Translations under genes and position numbers: made by a program
Notes under the pieces: model-generated
Database searches by the model: none
The model's input: only the letters and a program-made list of their open reading frames with translations
What the model was told of the DNA's origin: nothing
Source of the DNA: Tannerella sp.
GTDB taxonomy: Bacteria > Bacteroidota > Bacteroidia > Bacteroidales > Tannerellaceae
DNA length: 11,413 bases
Direction: 5' to 3'
Assembly (NCBI GenBank): GCA_031288935.1
Contig: JAITQL010000170.1
Coordinates: forward strand, 1-11,413
Shown here: positions 1,883-11,413 of the stretch, piece by piece
Layout of the letters: each line of letters starts with the position of its first letter
Numbering within the stretch: the stretch's first letter is position 1

Positions 1883-3460
1883 TTATTGAATATCCAACGT
1901 GGCCGGCCCGACAAGATAGGTGATTTCAGCATTGATTTCGAGCGTTTCAGACGCTGCCGTAACCGTCGAAATCACCTCGCCCAAACCGTTGAGCGTTTGT
2001 TGCAGACCCTTGCCGATTTTCACGTTCACCCGCCGGACGCCTTCGGGCGACCAGATCGCCCAGACGCGCGTTCCGTTTTGCTGCGTCCAGCTGACTACGC
2101 AAAAATCCTTCCGGTTCCAGTCTACGGACATATCCATAACAGATCCTTCCGAAAAAAGTTTACCGACCGTCGCATACGCATAATAGGCCGGTTTAGGTTC
2201 CAGTTCCCGGCGCACAACGCCGAAATTATCTTCCCTGTCGAAAATGTTTCGTTCGGGAGATGAAAATTCATAACAGATATACCGTTCGATCCCGAAGCGC
2301 AGCGAAAGGAGCATCGTCTGTCCGAGAAAAACAGCCTGGCTTCTCTCTTTGGCTACCATGTCGTCGTAATAGTACATCTTCCCCTCTTTGGTGTAATAAT
2401 ACACCCGGCCTCCGCTTCCAAGATAATGAACCAGCGGTTGGGCGATGAGCTGGCTGATGTGCAGCGGAAGATTTTCCGACGGCGGAAAAAAAACGGCGTC
2501 GTAGCTGTTCCGGGACATCCGTTTCAATTCAAAAAACGTGATGAACTCAAGCGACGTGCCTTCCGGGAAAAACGACCGGACGGTTTGTTCCGCAAACGCA
2601 GGGTCGACCGGAAAATCATCGTCGGACACAACGGCTACCCGCCAGGCTTTACCCGACCGGCTTTTGGCTTCATGAAACGCATCCCTGTCCGCCACGTTGA
2701 TACGCACCATCGAAGTATATCCCATCTCGGTAATCCAGATACTCTTTTTATCTACCTTATACTTGGCCATCAACGTACGCAGACCGGCAAGATCGTCATG
2801 GTAACGGACGGTCTCCTCCATAGTCTGCAACAGCGGACGGTAGGGATGGATACAAAACCGGTCGAAATACTTTCCGGCTCCTGTCTCGAAGACCTTTTCG
2901 GCATATTCCATCGGGATGCCGCACAGTCCGGCGTGAAGTACAACCAAATCCGGGTCTATCTCTTTGATTTTTTTATACGTGGCTTCAAGCAGTACCGCAT
3001 ATTCGGCTGCATTGCCACCCATTTTGTCCCAGAACAAATTCGGTTCGTTCCAGATTTCCCAATAACGTACCTTGTCCTTATAACGCATAACCGTCTTTTC
3101 CACATACGTCAGCCATGCATCCAAATGTTGATAAGCCGGATTCGCCCACGCTACATTATATAATAGCAGCGCCAACACCTGAATACCCTGTTTACCCGTT
3201 TCCTCCACCACCCGGTCGAGATGTTCGAAATGCCAGTTTCCCTGCGGTGATTCCACGCCGCCCCAGGAAAAATCGGTTCGTACCCACCTGGCGCCGGCAT
3301 CACGCATCATCTGCAGATTTTTCGGCATCCGATCATGCTCTTCCCCGCTTTGGATATGCGCCGTGAAGCCAAACGGACACGCTTCCTGCGACATGCCGCG
3401 AGCTGGAAAGAAAAGAAACCATACGGGAATAAACACCCAAATATACACACGTTTTTTCAT
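1883..3460 (-). CDS. Secreted clan GH-A glycoside hydrolase (GH39/cellulase-like) with an inserted alpha/beta domain
   Basis: This 525-residue protein has a signal peptide (basic MKKR, hydrophobic core to ~residue 20, probable cleavage near residues 24-26) and no lipobox. The barrel starts at ~residue 29. Clan GH-A signatures are clear: WVRTDFSW (59-66), the acid/base motif WNEPN with Glu139, HPYRP (205-209), and the nucleophile strand IWITEMGYTS with Glu245. The WNEPN form and the spacing suggest a GH39-like or cellulase-family enzyme acting on a beta-linked glycan; the substrate is not readable. After the nucleophile strand the expected final barrel segment (QAVFLGQTMLLSLRFGIERY, then ICYEF) appears only at ~375-398. 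The ~110 residues between look like a separate alpha/beta domain (see findings). The C-terminal ~80 residues form a beta-rich domain, as is common after GH-A barrels. It is the first gene of the minus-strand unit and is divergent from susC. The ATG at 3458-3460 gives the signal peptide. Confidence 0.85.
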   Translation of the reverse strand: MKKRVYIWVFIPVWFLFFPARGMSQEACPFGFTAHIQSGEEHDRMPKNLQMMRDAGARWVRTDFSWGGVESPQGNWHFEHLDRVVEETGKQGIQVLALLLYNVAWANPAYQHLDAWLTYVEKTVMRYKDKVRYWEIWNEPNLFWDKMGGNAAEYAVLLEATYKKIKEIDPDLVVLHAGLCGIPMEYAEKVFETGAGKYFDRFCIHPYRPLLQTMEETVRYHDDLAGLRTLMAKYKVDKKSIWITEMGYTSMVRINVADRDAFHEAKSRSGKAWRVAVVSDDDFPVDPAFAEQTVRSFFPEGTSLEFITFFELKRMSRNSYDAVFFPPSENLPLHISQLIAQPLVHYLGSGGRVYYYTKEGKMYYYDDMVAKERSQAVFLGQTMLLSLRFGIERYICYEFSSPERNIFDREDNFGVVRRELEPKPAYYAYATVGKLFSEGSVMDMSVDWNRKDFCVVSWTQQNGTRVWAIWSPEGVRRVNVKIGKGLQQTLNGLGEVISTVTAASETLEINAEITYLVGPATLDIQ

Positions 3461-3683: not shown

Positions 3684-6600
3684 ATGAAGAAGAGAAATGT
3701 GTTGAGATGTGGGCAGTTTTGCATGTGGAGACAAGCAAAATTGAACTGTTTTATTTTCTTTCTGTCATTTATTTCAATGCCGCTCATGGCGACTGTCAGT
3801 GGAACAGTTGAGAAAAGCATTGAGACGGAAGGAATATTGTCTCCATCGGACAGTGAGATCAGAGGATCTGTGGTTGGTGTGAACGATGAGCCGCTGCCAG
3901 GAGTAAATATAGTGGTTAAAGGGACTACTCTTGGGACGGTCACCGACAGCGAAGGACGGTTTGTATTACGCGTACCGGAGGGAGCTGTATTGGAGATATC
4001 TTATATCGGTTATGTAAAACAGACCGTGGCGGCGACGAACAATCTTCGGATTGTGCTGGAGGAAGATATGGAGAGTTTGGAAGAGGTCATTGTCGTAGGT
4101 TACGGAACGGTGAAGAAATCCGATCTGACGGGAGCTGTCAGCTCCGTGACCCCCAAGTCTTTTCTTGACCAGCCGGGTTCGTCCGTCAACTCTGTTTTGC
4201 AGGGACGGGCGCCGGGTGTAGTCGTCAGACGAAGCAACGGAGCGCCGGGCGAAGGTTCTACGATCCGTATCCGCGGCGTCAACTCCATTCTGGGGAACAA
4301 CGACCCGCTGATTGTGGTGGACGGCAATTACAGCAGTATGCCGAACTTGTACGATATTGAGTCGATCGAAATCCTGAAAGACGCCTCCGCTACGGCCATC
4401 TACGGTTCCCGGGGCGCCAACGGCGTCATTATCGTCACTACCAAACGAGGCAGTACGGAGGGAAAGAACGAAGTAAAACTGTATTCCAATGTATCTTTCG
4501 ATCAGGTACCCCGGCTGTATGACATGATGGGAGCGGTGGAGTTTGCCGAGTTCATGAATCAGGTAGGCATTGGGATGGGTGGTTCGGCCACTTACTCGGA
4601 GGCCGACATTGCCCGCTTCAGGGAACACGGTGGAACAAACTGGCAGGAGGAATTGTTCCGGACGGGCATGACCCAAAATCACAAGGCGGTACTGACCGGT
4701 GGAAACAAAAAGATGAAGTATTATCTCTCTCCCACCTATAATCAGATGGATGGAGTTTTGATTAACACTTCGTCCAGGAATTACGGCGTAATTGCAAAAT
4801 TGGACGCCGAAGTGAGTAAGCGCGTATCCTATCAGTTCGAGGCAAGTGTCAGGCACAGTGAACTATTGAATCCGGGACTGGGAAGAGGCGGCGATCACAT
4901 GGGGCTTCCGCTGCAATCCGCCCTGATCTGGTCGCCGACGGCCAATGTATTCAATGAAGACGGCACGTATCAAAGTTTGGATCCGCTTTCCGCAAGGACG
5001 TTGAACCCGGTCTTGCTGACTACGATGAAAGATACGCGCTATACCAACGACGGCGGCGCCGTGGGGAACCTCAAGGTCAAAATCATCGACGGACTGGTCT
5101 TCGACGGCAAAGCGTCCATGAGCTACGGCACCGGCGGTCAGCGTTATTTTCTTCCGGCGGAATTGAACGGCAACCGCGCCAATGCGTCGCAAAACAGCTA
5201 TGAATCCCGTTCATGGCTGATGAATGCCTTCCTGACATACAGCAAGACCTTTGCCGCGAAACATCAGATGTCGCTTATGTTCGGATTTGAAGAAAGCCAG
5301 GGACAATCGCGCTCCTTCAACGCGAATGCCGAGGATCTGGCCTATCCGGTTGTCGAATGGGACAATCTGAATCTCGGGGCAATCAAGAATGTCGGTTCCG
5401 GTTTCAGTAACGACGCCTTGCGGTCGTATTTTGCCCGCGGTACGTATCAGTATGACGGACGGTATTATTTCACCGGAACGTATCGTTCCGACGGTTCTTC
5501 CAAGTTCAGAGGGGACAACCGTTTCAGTAACTTCCCGTCGTTTGCGTTGGGCTGGAGGCTCTCCGAAGAAGGCTTCCTGAAAGATACGGAGATTTTCCAA
5601 AACCTGAAACTCCGGGGCGGCTGGGGCATCACCGGCAGTCAGGCCGTCAGCCCGTATGCCACCCTTTCACCCATGGAGAGCGGCCCCTTCACCTGGGCTA
5701 CCAGCCAGTCATACACGGGCTACTATCCGGGTGTCGTCGGCAATCCCTATCTGCAGTGGGAGGAAACAACACAAACCGACTTCGGACTGGACTTCTCCGT
5801 CCTCGGCGGAAAACTGTCCTTTGCCTTTGATTACTATTACAAGCAGACCGACAAACTGCTGTCCAAAATCGTCATACCGATTTACAACGGGGGCGGAACG
5901 ATTAATACCAACGTCGGCCTGATTGAAAACAAGGGATTTGAGTTCAACCTTAATTACGTCGTCTTTGAAAACAAGGACTGGTCGTATGACGTCAACCTGA
6001 ACGGCGCTCACAACGAGAACAAGGTGGTTGACATCGGCGATCAGGATCGTCTGTGGGGCGGCACCTCCGTGGCCGGCATCATGCCGCAAAGTCCGTTTAT
6101 CATTCTTCCGGGACACTCCATCGGTACGATTTACGGATACAAATACCTGGGCATTTGGCAGCGCGGCGATGTAGTGGATGCTCTGAAATTCGGACAGGAA
6201 CCGGGCGGTTATCATTACGAAGATCTGAACAACAATAGCAAATACGATGCGGAAGACTACCAGATCATCGGCAACGCATGTCCGAAATTCACGTGGGGAT
6301 TCAACAATCACCTCTCCTGGAAGAACTGGGATCTGAATGTGCTGGTCGAAGGACTGCACGGCCGGGATATTCTCAACCTCAGCTATTTCATGGCAGCCAA
6401 TGTCTATGACAACTCGCTGGCCGTGACGTCGAGCGCCGGAAAAGACCGCTGGACACCCGAAAATCCCTGGGCGGAGTTTTCCAAGCTGGCCCTGAGCAAC
6501 GTGGTGATGTCCAATTCCGACCAGTGGATACAGGACGGCAGTTATGTGAAGATACGGAATCTCAGTCTGGCGTATCGCTTGACGAAGCAAACGACCCGGT

Positions 6601-6773
6601 TTGCCGACATCCGGCTGGCCGTAAGCGCTCAAAACGTGTTTACGTTTACAAATTACAAGGGCTACGATCCCGAAGTATCTTCCGCGGGAGGCTCCGATAC
6701 GGATGCCGGACTGGACTGGTTCGCCTACCCCAATCCCCGAAGTTATACGTTCAGTCTTATGTTGGAATACTAA
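3684..6773 (+). CDS. SusC/RagA-family TonB-linked outer-membrane transporter
   Basis: This 1029-residue protein has the usual length and order for a SusC-type transporter. A signal peptide (hydrophobic ~20-36) is followed by a short linker and then a carboxypeptidase-regulatory-like domain at ~58-127, with GVNIVVKGTTLGTVTDSEGRF near its start and ISYIGY near its end. The TonB box region is EEVIVVGYGTVKKSDLTGAV (~133-152). The plug domain runs to ~260 and includes LQGRAPGVVV, TIRIRGVNS, DPLIVVDG and SATAIYGSRGANGVIIVTTKRG. The rest is the 22-strand barrel, ending in SYTFSLMLEY with the terminal aromatic residue typical of outer-membrane barrels. There is no room for an N-terminal STN signalling domain, so control through an ECF sigma/anti-sigma pair is not expected. 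With the adjacent SusD it would import an oligosaccharide using TonB energy; the substrate is unknown. The ATG at 3684 is the first that gives a signal peptide. Confidence 0.97.
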   Translation: MKKRNVLRCGQFCMWRQAKLNCFIFFLSFISMPLMATVSGTVEKSIETEGILSPSDSEIRGSVVGVNDEPLPGVNIVVKGTTLGTVTDSEGRFVLRVPEGAVLEISYIGYVKQTVAATNNLRIVLEEDMESLEEVIVVGYGTVKKSDLTGAVSSVTPKSFLDQPGSSVNSVLQGRAPGVVVRRSNGAPGEGSTIRIRGVNSILGNNDPLIVVDGNYSSMPNLYDIESIEILKDASATAIYGSRGANGVIIVTTKRGSTEGKNEVKLYSNVSFDQVPRLYDMMGAVEFAEFMNQVGIGMGGSATYSEADIARFREHGGTNWQEELFRTGMTQNHKAVLTGGNKKMKYYLSPTYNQMDGVLINTSSRNYGVIAKLDAEVSKRVSYQFEASVRHSELLNPGLGRGGDHMGLPLQSALIWSPTANVFNEDGTYQSLDPLSARTLNPVLLTTMKDTRYTNDGGAVGNLKVKIIDGLVFDGKASMSYGTGGQRYFLPAELNGNRANASQNSYESRSWLMNAFLTYSKTFAAKHQMSLMFGFEESQGQSRSFNANAEDLAYPVVEWDNLNLGAIKNVGSGFSNDALRSYFARGTYQYDGRYYFTGTYRSDGSSKFRGDNRFSNFPSFALGWRLSEEGFLKDTEIFQNLKLRGGWGITGSQAVSPYATLSPMESGPFTWATSQSYTGYYPGVVGNPYLQWEETTQTDFGLDFSVLGGKLSFAFDYYYKQTDKLLSKIVIPIYNGGGTINTNVGLIENKGFEFNLNYVVFENKDWSYDVNLNGAHNENKVVDIGDQDRLWGGTSVAGIMPQSPFIILPGHSIGTIYGYKYLGIWQRGDVVDALKFGQEPGGYHYEDLNNNSKYDAEDYQIIGNACPKFTWGFNNHLSWKNWDLNVLVEGLHGRDILNLSYFMAANVYDNSLAVTSSAGKDRWTPENPWAEFSKLALSNVVMSNSDQWIQDGSYVKIRNLSLAYRLTKQTTRFADIRLAVSAQNVFTFTNYKGYDPEVSSAGGSDTDAGLDWFAYPNPRSYTFSLMLEY

Positions 6774-6791
6774 CCTCTTTAAATTGGAAAA

Positions 6792-8405
6792 ATGATGAAA
6801 AAAGATAGTTTGAAATATATCGTGATGCTGCTCGGCATCGCCGTTCTTGCAGCCTGTTCGTCCAACGACGAGTTTCTGGAGGAGAAAACCTACGGGAAAA
6901 TCTTCCCGGAAGAGTTTTATCGCAATCAGGTGGAGCTGGACATGGCAAACAATGCGCTGTATCGCCGGTTCAGCAAGACATTCAATGCGGATTACGCTTC
7001 GTTCGTGGTCGTGCTTTATGGAGGGGACGACGTGACGACGCCTTACAATGCGAATACGTCTTACCTTCAGAATGACACCTACATCCGGCAGGCGGCGAAC
7101 GGTGATGTGCTGGACGGATGGCAGTATGGCTATTCCACCATTAACATTGCCAACGGAATTATCCGGAACTACCGGACGGCCGAAGGCGAGACCAGCGAGC
7201 AAAACCTGCGCTACATCGCTGCGCAGGCGCATTTTGCACGCGCTTACATGTATTACTGGCTGGTGCGCATATTCAATGAAATTCCTTACGTGACAACGGT
7301 GAGGGAACCGGACAAGACGATTACGAAAAGTTCTCCCGAAGTCATCTACGAAGCCATCATCGCCGACCTGAAGATAGCGGAAGAATGGTTGCCGGTCACC
7401 TGGAAGGGAATTGATGAAGTCAAGGCCAACGGCGGCGGATTCACCAGAGGAGCCGCCAAGGCTACGCTGGCCAGCGTCTACCTGAGCATGGCCGGCTATC
7501 CGCTGAAGAAAACCGAGTGCTACAGACTGGCGAAAGAGAAGGCCGCCGAACTCGTCGAACACGAATCGGAATACGGTTACCGCCTGCTGGATCACTGCGC
7601 GGAACTGTGGAAAGTGACTCCGCTGATACACGACGAAATGGTTTTCTCTCTTATGTACAACAAGTCCACGGATGATTACAATGTGCGGGCGCCCAAGGGA
7701 TGCCGTCCCGTGCAGTTCGGCGGATGGGAAGCCTACTGTCCGGAGATCGGCTTTTTCCACCGCTTTCCGGCCGGCGAACGGCGGGAGGCGACTTTTGTCA
7801 CGGAATTTCCGTTGACAAGCGGATGGTATACGACCGTACCGACGCTGCCGTGGCCGGAAGACAAGCCGATGCTCCCCTGGCAGGAAATGATGTTCCGGCA
7901 TCCGTATTACTTCAAGATGTGGGAAGCGGAAGGCATGGAAGGGGTCAACAAGTGGGTGCCGGCGGGCGATAACGACTGGTACAGCAGCCGTACCAGCCAG
8001 GTGATCCGTTATGCCGAGGTGTTGCTGATTTACGCCGAAGCGCAGGCGATGGCCGACGGCGCGCCCAATGCCCTGGCTTACGATTGCATCAACCGCGTGC
8101 GCAACCGCGCCTTTGCCGGCGTCGGCACGCATCTGAACGACCTGAAGCCCGGCCTGAGCGCCGAAGCATTCCGCGATTCCGTATTCGTGGAACGCGGATG
8201 GGAATTTGCCGGTTTTGAGTACGCCAGTCGCTGGTTCGACCTGGTGCGGCTTGAACTGGTAGAAGACGCAGCCTCTGCCAGTCCCTCGCACGCCTTCCTG
8301 CCCGGACGGTCTGCCGATGACTGGGCGATTCTGAACAAGCCCACGCACGACAGCTATTTCCTTCCCATCCCGGAAGAAGATGCGTTGCTGAACGATAATT
8401 TATAG
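6792..8405 (+). CDS. SusD/RagB-family surface glycan-binding lipoprotein
   Basis: This 537-residue protein is of normal length for the family. The lipobox LAAC puts the lipidated Cys at residue 22, followed by SSNDEFLEEKTYG, the usual SusD opening and a surface-export type signal. The alpha-helical TPR-like N-terminal half includes RYIAAQAHFARAYMYYWLVR. The C-terminal half has the SusD hallmarks: QVIRYAEVLLIYAEAQAMA, INRVRNRA, a VFVERGWEFAGFEYASRWFDLVR block ending near residue 487, and a closing FLPIPEEDALLNDNL. SusD proteins sit as a lid on the SusC barrel and bind the incoming glycan. The gene starts 18 bp after the susC stop, so the two are cotranscribed. A second ATG directly follows the first (MMKK), and the choice does not affect the mature protein. 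No fused or truncated domains are seen. Confidence 0.96.
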   Translation: MMKKDSLKYIVMLLGIAVLAACSSNDEFLEEKTYGKIFPEEFYRNQVELDMANNALYRRFSKTFNADYASFVVVLYGGDDVTTPYNANTSYLQNDTYIRQAANGDVLDGWQYGYSTINIANGIIRNYRTAEGETSEQNLRYIAAQAHFARAYMYYWLVRIFNEIPYVTTVREPDKTITKSSPEVIYEAIIADLKIAEEWLPVTWKGIDEVKANGGGFTRGAAKATLASVYLSMAGYPLKKTECYRLAKEKAAELVEHESEYGYRLLDHCAELWKVTPLIHDEMVFSLMYNKSTDDYNVRAPKGCRPVQFGGWEAYCPEIGFFHRFPAGERREATFVTEFPLTSGWYTTVPTLPWPEDKPMLPWQEMMFRHPYYFKMWEAEGMEGVNKWVPAGDNDWYSSRTSQVIRYAEVLLIYAEAQAMADGAPNALAYDCINRVRNRAFAGVGTHLNDLKPGLSAEAFRDSVFVERGWEFAGFEYASRWFDLVRLELVEDAASASPSHAFLPGRSADDWAILNKPTHDSYFLPIPEEDALLNDNL

Positions 8406-8487
8406 TATGACGCAAGGGCGATTTTTGAACAAAAGACAGTGAGTTTTGTTTTTAACACAGTATTTTTTAATGTAATAATTTGATCGT

Positions 8488-8874
8488 ATGAAAAGAATGT
8501 ATGTAATGTTGGCAGGTTTGTGCCTGCTGTGTATGGCGGCCGTAGAGGCCCGGTCCGGTAACGATATCAAAAGCAAGGTCAAAGGCAAGTGGGAAATAAG
8601 CATTCCCGACGCGCCTCACGGATACCAGAGCTACACGCTTGACATAAAGGAAAAGAATGAAGCGGTGGTAGTCGACGTCAAGGGCGGAGATATCAATATC
8701 AAGGAGCAGAAGTTTACCGAAAAGGAAGGCAAGTTATCGGCCAATCTATACGTAGGCGAATACGTGAAAGTGACCATCTGGGAAGAAAAAGGCGTGGTCA
8801 AGGGATCGGCAGATACGTCCATGGGTAAAATGGCGTGCAATTTCAAGAAACTGACTGAAAAGAAGGCGAAGTAA
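8488..8874 (+). CDS. Small secreted beta-rich protein of unknown function
   Basis: This 128-residue protein has a clear Sec signal peptide (MKRM, then a hydrophobic core, with probable cleavage near residue 21 at VEA-RSG). The mature part is ~105 residues, rich in Lys and Glu. Its pattern of alternating strands (GKWEISIPDAPHGYQSYTLDIK, VVVDVKGGDINIKEQKFTEKEGKLSA, YVKVTIWEEKGVVKGSADT) suggests one small beta-barrel or beta-sandwich, perhaps lipocalin/calycin-like. I do not recognise a named family. It begins 82 bp after the SusD gene and is followed by a strong terminator, so it may be the last gene of the susCD transcript; a separate promoter in the 82-bp gap is possible but not evident. The ATG at 8488 gives a good signal peptide. 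A periplasmic or surface accessory role in the glycan locus is inferred only from position. Confidence 0.8.
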   Translation: MKRMYVMLAGLCLLCMAAVEARSGNDIKSKVKGKWEISIPDAPHGYQSYTLDIKEKNEAVVVDVKGGDINIKEQKFTEKEGKLSANLYVGEYVKVTIWEEKGVVKGSADTSMGKMACNFKKLTEKKAK

Positions 8875-8898
8875 GCAAAAGCATGTACAGCACGCACG

Positions 8899-8954
8899 GG
8901 GTGCATGGCGTGCGGGAGGATCGTTCCCGCTGCGCCGTGCACCCTTTGTATTTT
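8899..8954 (+). terminator. Strong intrinsic terminator after the susCD transcript
   Basis: The arms at 8899-8917 and 8925-8944 pair over most of their length: GGGTGCA with TGCACCC, then a G-T wobble, GGCG with CGCC, a small 1-versus-2 base internal loop, and GCGGGA with TCCCGC. The loop is 7 nt. The stem is followed by the T-rich tail TTTGTATTTT. It begins 24 bp after the small secreted-protein gene. Confidence 0.85.
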
Positions 8955-9015
8955 CGGATATCATGATGGTGAACGGGGTTGCTGCCGGTTAACACGGGCA
9001 GGTTCCATATCATCA

Positions 9016-9179
9016 AACGATGGCGGCGGGCTGCACGGAAAGGTTTCATGACGGAAAACGGTGGCGGCGGATTGCATTTTAACGGTTCACGGCGAAAAAC
9101 GGCTCGTGCGGGCTGCACGGAAAGGTTTCACGACGGAAACCGATTCGTGCGGGTCGCATTTTAACGGTTCGAGAGCGAG
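9016..9179. repeat. Four tandem copies of a 41-bp repeat in the leader of the AsmA-like gene
   Basis: The units are 9016-9056, 9057-9097, 9098-9138 and 9139-9179, head to tail with no spacers. All share the opening A-A/C-C-G and a central GCGG-G/A-N-T/C-N-GCA core. Units 1 and 3 share the second half (CTGCACGGAAAGGTTTCA) and differ at ~7 of 41 positions. Units 2 and 4 share a different second half (GCATTTTAACGGTTC). The array is therefore an A-B-A'-B' pattern, as expected from duplication of an 82-bp pair. The period is not a multiple of three, so it is unlikely to be coding. In unit 3/4, GGTTTC (9124-9129) can pair with GAAACC (9136-9141). Together with 8955-9015 and 9180-9219, where I see nothing clear, this fills the gap before the AsmA-like gene. 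Confidence 0.85.
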
Positions 9180-9219
9180 GCTGATTAATGCAAACCGTAT
9201 TTTAATACTTGTTACAAAT

Positions 9220-10728
9220 ATGACGGCACAAATGATAAAAAAATCTGTGATCATGCTCGTCTGGGCAGTCTGCCTGTTGCCCTTGCCGGCCAGGGGACAG
9301 TTTGGAAAGATAATCCGAAAGCAGTTGAACGGCCTGTTCACCGCGGAGGTTGATTTTTCCAGCCTGCGCGTGTCCTTCATTCGCAAATTCCCGCGCACGT
9401 ATCTTTCGCTCGAAAACTTCCGGATGATCGGAACCGGCGCGTTTGAGGGAGACACCCTCGTCGCCTGCAGGAAAGCGACCGTGGTACTCAGCCTCGGCAG
9501 CCTCATCCGCCGAAAACATGTCAAAATAAAATCCATCCGGCTGGAAGAACCCGGATTCTACGCGCACATTTTGGCCGACGGGCAGGCGAACTGGCAGATC
9601 CTGAAATCGAAGGCGAAGGCGACGCCGGAAGAAACGCCGCCCTCTCCGCCGGCAACTCCGCCACCGCCGGAAACCGAACGGAAAGCCGGGCGAAAAGCCA
9701 AGCCGAAGCCTGAAACGAAGTTCTCGACCGGGCGGATCGAAGTATGCGACGCCGACATCGCGTTTCGCGACGACAGGCGCAAGATGCGGACTGCGGCGAA
9801 AGACATGGATATACTCATCGTCGAAGATCCGGTGAAAAAAGGCGCCGCTGCCGGCTGGACGGTGGAATTGCATGTGGCCGACCTTGACTTCCGCACGGGC
9901 AACAGCGGCTGGGTGCAGCATGCGCATCTGGACATGGCGGCGAGGATCTGTCCCGACGCGAACCGGAGGATGTTCGAACTGGAGGACGGACGGCTGCGAA
10001 TCAACGAAGTAGAGCTGCTCTTCGGCGGCAGGGCGGGCAAGCAGGACGGCGACCTGATAGCCGATCTGGCCTTCGACACCGGCCATACGGACTTTAAACA
10101 CCTGCTGTCGCTTGTTCCGGCCATCGCCCTGAGAGCGGATTTCGACAGCCTGCTCACGGCCGGCAGTTTCAGCGCCGGCGGAGCCGTGAAGGGGACGTTC
10201 AATAAACGGCAAAAGCCCGCGGTCAACTTCCACCTGCGGATAGACAGCGCCCGGCTCGGCTTCCCCGGCCTGCCCGAAGCCGTCGAACGGATTCGGCTGG
10301 CCATGCACATCCTGTACGACGGCGCCGTCTTCGACCGCAGTGCGATAGACATCGACCGGCTCCATCTGGCGCCGGGCGGACGGCCGTTCGACCTGTCTCT
10401 GCATCTGCAAACGCCTCAAAGCGACCTCCGGGTGGCCGGCGCCATGAAGGGAACCGTCCGTCTCGATTCGCTGGCCCGTGCCATTCCGCTGCGCGACGTG
10501 CAGCTGACCGGATTCATGGAAAGCGACCTTTCATTAGACGGCCGGATGTCGGCGCTCGAAAAGGAACCTTTTGAAGATTTTCATGCGCAGGGCATGTTGG
10601 AACTGAACAGCATTACCCTCATCAACAACCGGTTTCCGGAGGGCGCAGACGTACCGAACCTCTCCGTCAACTTCACGCCCCGGGTAGTGAAAATGCTCAA
10701 GACCATGCTGTCCGGAATAAAAAAGTAA
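9220..10728 (+). CDS. AsmA-like envelope protein, short for the family, with a proline-rich insertion
   Basis: Counted from the ATG at 9220, this protein has 502 residues. An N-terminal hydrophobic segment (~9-24) is a signal anchor or signal peptide. An AsmA-type N-terminal region follows: AEVDFSSLRVSFIRKFPRTY (42-61), LSLENFRMIG, FEGDTLVACRKATVVLSLGS and KIKSIRLEEPGFYAHILADGQANWQIL, with order and wording as in Bacteroidota AsmA-family proteins. Residues ~131-169 form a Pro/Lys/Glu-rich linker (TPPSPPATPPPPETERKAGR) before the beta-rich repeats resume. The protein ends soon after the LELNSITLINNRFP strand with a basic tail (KMLKTMLSGIKK), where relatives as I know them continue for several hundred residues. 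It may be a natural short form or C-terminally truncated. The family acts in inter-membrane lipid transport or envelope homeostasis. The frame is open upstream to a GTG at 9061, but that would translate the 41-bp repeats; 9220, or 9232 (MIKKSVIM), fits a signal sequence better. Confidence 0.8.
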   Translation: MTAQMIKKSVIMLVWAVCLLPLPARGQFGKIIRKQLNGLFTAEVDFSSLRVSFIRKFPRTYLSLENFRMIGTGAFEGDTLVACRKATVVLSLGSLIRRKHVKIKSIRLEEPGFYAHILADGQANWQILKSKAKATPEETPPSPPATPPPPETERKAGRKAKPKPETKFSTGRIEVCDADIAFRDDRRKMRTAAKDMDILIVEDPVKKGAAAGWTVELHVADLDFRTGNSGWVQHAHLDMAARICPDANRRMFELEDGRLRINEVELLFGGRAGKQDGDLIADLAFDTGHTDFKHLLSLVPAIALRADFDSLLTAGSFSAGGAVKGTFNKRQKPAVNFHLRIDSARLGFPGLPEAVERIRLAMHILYDGAVFDRSAIDIDRLHLAPGGRPFDLSLHLQTPQSDLRVAGAMKGTVRLDSLARAIPLRDVQLTGFMESDLSLDGRMSALEKEPFEDFHAQGMLELNSITLINNRFPEGADVPNLSVNFTPRVVKMLKTMLSGIKK

Positions 10729-10736
10729 CCGGCGCA

Positions 10737-10751
10737 ACCCGAGTTTCGGGT
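10737..10751 (+). terminator. Small perfect hairpin just after the AsmA-like gene
   Basis: ACCCGA and TCGGGT form a perfect 6-bp stem around a GTT loop, 8 bp after the stop codon. There is no T-run after it (AAGATTCATATAAAG), so it is a poor intrinsic terminator. It may protect the 3' end of the mRNA instead. Confidence 0.3.
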
Positions 10752-10816
10752 AAGATTCATATAAAGTCTGCTGAAAAACGCATCCGGACAGTCCCTGAAA
10801 TTTATCCGTTGTCATT

Positions 10817-10840
10817 AAAAAATTCGACTGCCTTCGGCAG
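10817..10840 (-). terminator. Hairpin with T-run after the lectin-fold gene (minus strand)
   Basis: On the minus strand CTGCC-GAA-GGCAG (10840 down to 10828) is a 5-bp stem with a GAA loop, followed after 5 nt by a run of six T (10822-10817). The stem is short and the T-run is offset, so termination is only plausible. On the plus strand the same stem is followed by CAGTTGTTTT and could help end the AsmA-like transcript. It lies 78 bp beyond the stop of the minus-strand gene. Confidence 0.4.
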
Positions 10841-10843
10841 CAG

Positions 10844-10896
10844 TTGTTTTGCCAAAAGGCGAAGCGAGGGACGAGCGAAGCAAAAGGGCAAAACAA
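10844..10896. repeat. 10-bp inverted repeat flanking a purine-rich mirror repeat, downstream of the variable gene
   Basis: TTGTTTTGCC (10844-10853) and GGCAAAACAA (10887-10896) are perfect inverted copies 33 nt apart. Between them lies a mirror repeat: CGAAGCGAG is followed, after GGGAC less one shared base, by its exact reverse GAGCGAAGC. The right arm is 21 bp past the stop codon of the lectin-fold gene. DGRs are known to need a hairpin or cruciform just downstream of the variable region for efficient mutagenic homing, so this is a candidate for that element. An ordinary transcriptional hairpin is the alternative. Confidence 0.55.
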
Positions 10897-10917: not shown

Positions 10918-11413
10918 TCAATTTGAACTGGAGGCCAGGCGGAAGCCCAGGTAGCGGAAGCGAAAGTCGGGCGCGCCGACGAAGCGAAAGGGAACACGCA
11001 CGTACTGCGCGACGAAGTCGTTCCAGCCACCGCCACGAAACACGCGGTGAGAGCCTGACGAAGGCCCGGCAGGATTGGTCTGAGAACTGCTACTATAAGA
11101 AAAAGACCAGTAGTCACTGCACCATTCATACACATTGCCGCTCATGTCATAAATGCCCAGCTCGTTCGGCGACTTTTGTCCCGCCGGATGGGTGGTGCCG
11201 CCGCTATTCCCGTCATACCATGCCACGTCGCCAACCGTATTGCTGCCGCTGTACCTGTATCCCTGGCTTTGAGCGCCGCCCCGCGCCGCGTATTCCCATT
11301 CCGCCTCCGTAGGCAGACGGTATGTCTTGCCTGTTTGTGCATTGAGTTTCTGAATAAACTCCTGCACATCGTGCCAACTCACCGATTCTACCGGCAAATT
11401 GTCTCCTTTGAAC
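10918..11413 (-). CDS. C-type-lectin/FGE-fold protein (partial), probable DGR variable protein
   Basis: The gene runs off the right edge of the window, so only its C-terminal ~164 codons are seen. The first visible in-frame residues are FKGDNLPVESVSWHDVQEF; the apparent TTG start at 11397 is internal and not a true start. Family signatures of the formylglycine-generating-enzyme (SUMF1) domain are clear: RLPTEAEWEYAARGG, SPNELGIYDMSGNVYEWCSD, RVFRGGGWND and LGFRLA. The two Cys that do catalysis in true FGE near the C-terminus are absent; that stretch here has no Cys at all. It is therefore not expected to activate sulfatases and more likely uses the fold for ligand binding. The last ~35 codons have the layout of a DGR variable region (separate entry). 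A Ser-rich loop (SFSYSSSSQTNPAGPSSGSH) precedes it. Neither a signal peptide nor a localisation can be judged without the N-terminus. Confidence 0.85.
   Translation of the reverse strand, partial: FKGDNLPVESVSWHDVQEFIQKLNAQTGKTYRLPTEAEWEYAARGGAQSQGYRYSGSNTVGDVAWYDGNSGGTTHPAGQKSPNELGIYDMSGNVYEWCSDYWSFSYSSSSQTNPAGPSSGSHRVFRGGGWNDFVAQYVRVPFRFVGAPDFRFRYLGFRLASSSN
10930..11046 (-). other. Putative variable region (VR) of a diversity-generating retroelement
   Basis: Within the fixed frame RVFRGGGWN...AQ-x-VRVP-x-R...APD-x-R...LGFRLA, the changing positions are nearly all NNC or NNT codons. They are GAC, TTC, GTC (11019-11011), TAC (11004-11002), TTT (10989-10987), TTC, GTC, GGC (10983-10975), TTT (10965-10963) and TTC, CGC, TAC (10959-10951). 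Replacing their first two bases with AA gives AAC or AAT everywhere, the Asn-rich template typical of DGRs with CLec-fold targets. Fixed codons between them (GCG CAG, GTG CGT GTT CCC, GCG CCC GAC, CTG GGC TTC CGC) contain few adenines, as adenine-specific mutagenesis predicts. The run ends at the gene's 3' end, the usual VR place. The inferred template is a reconstruction; no template copy was found in the window. Confidence 0.75.

Follow-up and report, generated by a model that had tools for sequence, protein, structure and literature searches.

A probable DGR-type variable region at the 3' end of an FGE-fold gene from an uncultured bacterial lineage, recognised by codon-position comparison

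Background

Can the variable region (VR) of a DGR be recognised in a genome whose assembly holds neither the template repeat (TR) nor the reverse transcriptase (RT)? A large RT-anchored survey states, in a part of its text, that it is itself unable to detect cases without an assembled RT (PMC8144416). The question is raised here by the last gene of an 11,413-base stretch of DNA, hereafter the window, which is the whole of contig C129 in a MAG of 1.85 Mb, 264 contigs and an estimated completeness of 55.66% (G000; other genomes, contigs and loci are likewise denoted by G, C and L numbers). A sequence-only reading of the window had noticed a run of NNC and NNT codons at the 3' end of this gene and had proposed that they were derived from the AAC and AAT codons of an Asn-rich template. 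We compared the gene with its copies and homologues. In our judgement it is very probable that the region delimited in Table 1 is the VR of a DGR-diversified receptor domain of the FGE/C-type-lectin fold, probably situated C-terminal to a Ser/Thr kinase.

Results

The gene and its surroundings

In a profile search the gene matches the FGE-sulfatase domain PF03781 with E 7.3e-38, and the VR lies close to its stop codon, which bears out the lectin/FGE fold and the 3'-terminal position of the original proposal. The six best relatives in a contig search are 59-65% identical; five carry names that we take to belong to Bacteroidota and the sixth is named only "bacterium", so that the suggested membership in Bacteroidales is plausible. 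Elsewhere in the window, two long genes at 3684-8405 resemble what is presumably a SusC/SusD nutrient-uptake pair, which is adjoined by a GH42-like gene at 1883-3460, and four partly similar 63-base repeats in 41-base steps occupy 8985-9170, between a gene of 128 amino acids and an AsmA-like gene.

Table 1. Features of the terminal gene, in window coordinates
Feature	Position	Strand	Basis or remark
FGE-sulfatase-fold gene, 3' part	10918..11412	-	stop codon 10918-10920; 5' end lost at contig end
DGR-type VR (probable), hypervariable codons within a near-constant frame	10927..11049	-	codon comparison, four copies
First hypervariable block: AAC GAC TTC GTC, GCG CAG (constant or nearly so), TAC	11002..11022	-	four-copy comparison
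Second block: TTT (NNT column), CGC constant, TTC GTC GGC	10975..10989	-	four-copy comparison
Third block: TTT (NNT column), CGC constant, TTC CGC TAC	10951..10965	-	four-copy comparison

Codon pattern of the variable region

The reported codon pattern does occur at the place given for it. Reading the minus strand from 11049 to 10951, fifteen codons are of the NNC or NNT type (CAC TTT AAC GAC TTC GTC TAC TTT TTC GTC GGC TTT TTC CGC TAC), against a background of 51.2% C- or T-ending codons among 3,204 in the five other large open reading frames of the window; the naive chance of fifteen such codons, 0.512^15 = 4e-5, is indicative only, the codons having been picked after comparing the copies. 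Adenines are few, as had been claimed, the 132 bases at 10918-11049 comprising 13 A, 45 C, 38 G and 36 T. The range originally given, 10930-11046, contains the pattern and is slightly too narrow: the codon at 11047-11049 is CAC in the window and AAC, TAC and TAC in the three other copies described below, and the codon at 10927-10929 varies as well. The edges in Table 1 are approximate, being the outermost variable codons of this type rather than the ends of a known template.

Across the four copies NNT columns remain NNT and NNC columns remain NNC, with one exception. The NNT columns read TTT/TTT/GGT/TTT at 11038-11040, TTT/TAT/TAT/TTT at 10987-10989 and TTT/AAT/AAT/GAT at 10963-10965. The encoded amino acids change in these columns. 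A preference for C-ending codons is no explanation of the pattern, and AAT codons in a template would be one. In the first block the window is longer by one codon than the other three copies.

Comparison of copies by codon position

The 495-base gene part was searched at the DNA level against 41 genomes of the genus and found some match in 37, many of them consisting only of a short conserved stretch (query positions 77-137). Its nearest copies lie at G037:C216:5872-6360 (84% DNA identity over 495 bases) and G037:C216:11877-12120 (81%), and a further copy lies inside the window's own MAG at C12:8990-9215. A pattern search of 123 genomes of the family, in which the frame bases were fixed, the suspected bases were free and two mismatches were tolerated, returned no copy beyond these three and the window itself.

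The stretch from RGG to GFR comprises 29 codons, in which the window and G037:C216:5872-6360 differ at 7, 10 and 0 bases of codon positions 1, 2 and 3; in the 124 codons upstream the counts are 12, 13 and 34. The contrast of 17 differences at positions 1 and 2 and none at position 3 with 25 and 34 upstream is significant (Fisher P 9.1e-6). The remaining five pairs among the four copies, which are not independent of one another, give P values of 7.3e-4, 0.011, 0.051, 0.33 and 0.0039; the contrast is therefore not significant in two of the six pairs (0.051 and 0.33). Taken over all four copies, the VR has 32 variable bases (15, 15 and 2 by codon position), with A in at least one copy at 24 of them and in no copy at the other 8; the upstream part has 12 (2, 2 and 8), with A in some copy at 4. 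The direction of change in the VR, from A to any base, appears to be indicated indirectly.

Another comparison involves two other members of the genus. G025:C144 and G024:C42 overlap by 343 bases, in which 24 of 90 VR bases differ, against 8 of 253 outside the VR (P 1.6e-9). The VR differences are distributed 15, 6 and 3 over the codon positions, and A stands on one side in 17 of the 24 and on neither side in 7. The variation appears to be fresh; if one population had been mis-binned into two MAGs, this would equally mean fast local variation. Against the DGR reading count the two non-significant pairs of copies, the 3 third-position differences of this last pair, and the variable bases that show no A (7 of 24 here, 8 of 32 among the four copies).

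The positions in question vary throughout the FGE family, so variability alone is little proof. As negative controls we took seven pairs formed by other FGE paralogues of the genus (L106/L107 and six among L113, L114, L116 and L117); in none of them did the place of the VR differ by codon position from the rest of the gene (P 0.2 to 1). In three pairs of VR genes from L058, a homologous locus where the template is present, each pair had 0 third-position differences in the VR (P 7e-5 to 2e-4). The window shares the profile of this template-bearing system, which the ordinary paralogues of the genus do not. A simulation of third bases found 19 of 22 columns constant against 1.8 expected; it treats the copies as independent, ignores common descent and is not relied upon.

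The copy on C12 (L014, 8990-9242) is an isolated 3' fragment of an FGE gene whose end resembles a VR. It directly follows an ABC-permease-like reading frame, has ATTCAAAG-type repeats on either side and sits near a contig end. Candidate readings of this piece are a pseudogene, an assembly artefact or a cassette. The stretch C12:9047-9215 was considered as a template and ruled out, since it departs from the window VR at bases other than its own A's as well.

Templates in homologous loci

A scan of 80 homologous loci for repeats in which at least 75% of the mismatches fall at A (or T) of one sequence returned four loci. One of them, L048, contains short repeats. At L058 one template accompanies three VR genes, with mismatches at template A in 12/12, 16/16 and 14/15 cases; the corresponding counts are 15/15 at L019 and 15/18 at L029. 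The templates of these true TR/VR pairs translate to Asn-rich peptides. A DGR RT is present in L029 and L058, and no convincing RT was found within 14.7 kb at L019 (best E 0.63). The FGE domain is fused to a caspase at L019, where the gene and its VR occupy 6537-8869 together with the template, 256 bases downstream. Of the three targets of the single template at L058 (112-8468), two are joined to nSTAND1 and TIR and the third shows FGE alone, as does the L029 target.

Search for the template and the reverse transcriptase

The sequence-only reading had also predicted a near-copy serving as template and a DGR-type RT in the same genome. Both were sought and neither was found in the window's MAG: it yielded no template copy and no RT above the Pfam cut-off, and the RT of Bacteroides phage p00 found no match in it, an empty result that by itself shows little. 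With only 56% of this genome recovered, the missing template and RT neither confirm nor refute the DGR reading. A candidate RT on C205 of the same MAG scored 13.5 bits, under the cut-off, and has an internal stop. Nor was a template found in the 41 genomes of the genus (DNA search) or in the 123 of the family (pattern search).

No DGR RT was found in any of the four VR-bearing genomes (G000, G024, G025 and G037), and in G024 and G025 even a threshold of E 1 brings up no PF00078 match. The estimated completeness of the four is 56, 84, 85 and 72%, respectively, so that the absence of a chromosomal gene from all of them by chance is unlikely; an unbinned element or loss would be the likelier cause. 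Leaving aside the UG24 RT treated below, the RT fragments of G037 look like pieces of other RTs and were rejected: L199 and L202 resemble the DGR RTs weakly at best, with E values no better than 1e-4, and L206 has no listed match. The RT of L029, searched against the 41 genomes of the genus, had matches at 1e-5 or better in 13 and a clearly close one only in G035 (2.7e-58). There a DGR-type RT is accompanied by a repeat that resembles a template and by two VR-like copies of another, non-FGE protein; which repeat represents the template was judged from its A content. These elements (L157, G035:C34, 7083-8846) lie among prophage-looking genes, some of which we take to be terminase-like.

Among viral contigs, no usable locus was returned for either of two VR patterns, for the UG24 protein or for the kinase-FGE protein of G025. 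The G037 kinase-FGE protein returned 79 FGE loci; at 1e-5 none of the 79 matched any of five RT queries, and an A-biased repeat was present in 3. Phage and plasmid records gave merely partial FGE matches. As for a DGR-like hairpin behind the VR, three downstream stretches fold no better than shuffles (z 0.29, -0.19 and -1.46).

The kinase domain and the UG24 gene of G037

The G037 ortholog is a protein of 578 aa in which aa 24-295 form a Ser/Thr kinase (PF00069) and aa 358-574 the FGE domain, and the G025 protein of 567 aa has the two domains in the same order. By comparison with the G037 ortholog, the full-length window gene probably encodes a kinase-FGE fusion as well, an architecture beyond what the window sequence could show.

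A UG24 RT of 1086 aa (RT + HD-CE, PADLOC 1130.7 bits) is encoded at 7608-10865 on the minus strand of the same G037 contig (L154, G037:C216), and a neighbouring gene of 186 aa has a weak RTas1299 match (17 bits). We take this UG24 to be a neighbouring defence gene. No UG24 was found on plasmids.

Discussion

The DGR-type variation between copies, consisting of changes at the first two positions of NNC/NNT codons within a near-constant frame, and the true templates in homologues, together with TvpA as the best solved relative, strongly support the view that this gene carries a DGR-type VR. In the mechanism that we envisage, a DGR reverse transcriptase would copy an A-rich template RNA into error-ridden cDNA, which would replace the gene end and randomise the first two bases of AAC/AAT codons and with them the binding face, whose contact with a ligand would then be relayed to the kinase. 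By analogy with conflict systems, a phage or surface ligand may be what the variable face binds, with the kinase switched in response. The template and enzyme would either be encoded on an unassembled or unbinned stretch and act in trans, or would no longer act.

The last case, in which the VR was made by a DGR since lost, the last binding face being kept and diversification having ended, is a sub-case of the DGR explanation that we regard as possible but less likely than not. It agrees with the lack of template and DGR RT in four VR-bearing genomes of the completeness given above, and part of the account of Treponema denticola provides a precedent in strains that keep the target genes without RT and TR (PMC4891356). 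On the other hand, the fresh variation between G025 and G024, in neither of whose MAGs an RT was found, speaks for an enzyme that lies beyond the bins and not for loss. A bolder and unlikely version supposes that a family of kinase-coupled hypervariable receptors in these bacteria is diversified in trans and that the retroelement responsible does not accompany its targets. It would be either one RT and template that the targets share and that lie off the binned chromosome (on a plasmid, a phage or some other element) or an RT of a kind other than DGR, for instance UG24. That UG24 itself, rather than a DGR RT, diversifies these genes is barely credible in our opinion. The UG24 gene of G037 does lie between two VR genes and has the kinase-FGE gene as a same-strand neighbour, but it is missing from the other 40 genomes of the genus, G000, G024 and G025 among them, and it occurs in only 1 of 393 genomes of the order (G232, in a 16-kb stretch with no FGE match) and in 0 of 395 of the phylum (both searches at E 1e-20); nor was a template copy found near it.

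An explanation that involves no retroelement would see ordinary paralogues whose exposed loops are under positive selection and whose variants are exchanged through recombination between scattered copies, the C12 fragment being one of them. Several copies do exist, the one on C12 is a lone gene end, and the FGE family generally varies at these residues. Selection, however, would not spare third bases while altering both first bases, and it is hard to reconcile with NNT and NNC columns that are held with one exception; moreover, the pattern is absent from the ordinary FGE paralogues of the genus and present in the positive control. We consider this explanation quite improbable. Reading the region as a DGR-type VR extends the putative hypermutable sensors by a kinase-FGE architecture found in an uncultured lineage, and it illustrates that comparative codon statistics can recognise such VRs when the assembly is without template and enzyme.

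Among known systems, formylglycine-generating enzymes (6muj and others) share with the window protein the fold and the PF03781 match (2.3e-19 and weaker). In an alignment covering the C-terminal part, the window protein differs from them in having no Cys at the C...C pair of 6muj, which we take to be the pair with a role in the enzyme. A better match among solved structures is TvpA of T. denticola (PDB 2y3c, 7.5e-29), a PF03781-fold, FGE-type DGR variable protein with its VR at the equivalent C-terminal place; in contrast to TvpA, the window protein probably carries a Ser/Thr kinase in addition to its FGE domain, and neither template nor RT was found in the genome. Remote targets are reported in T. 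denticola in part of the same source (PMC4891356). The FGE proteins of L029, L058 and L019 have a homologous FGE domain, a VR at the equivalent place and an A-rich template, which is present at each of these loci, and are identical to the window part at 56%, 47% (two of the three L058 copies, 37% for the third) and 62% of protein positions, respectively; their partners, nSTAND1/TIR at L058 and a caspase at L019, differ from the probable kinase of the window gene. A further comparison is offered by the FGE and CLec sensors of conflict systems, the subject of a 2021 paper presumably from the Burroughs and Aravind group. In these systems, according to parts of three reports, FGE is joined to signalling or effector domains and the DGR is adjacent or elsewhere in the genome (Kaur et al. 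2020, PMC7159879; PMC8195603; PMC10907252). The cases described in those parts are mainly from cyanobacteria and proteobacteria with identified DGRs, unlike the present Bacteroidota-like MAG without one. Invader-molecule binding has been proposed there for the FGE domains (PMC8195603, PMC7159879). Portions of Dore et al. 2024 list Pkinase among the domains of DGR targets and describe targets diversified in trans (PMC10907252).
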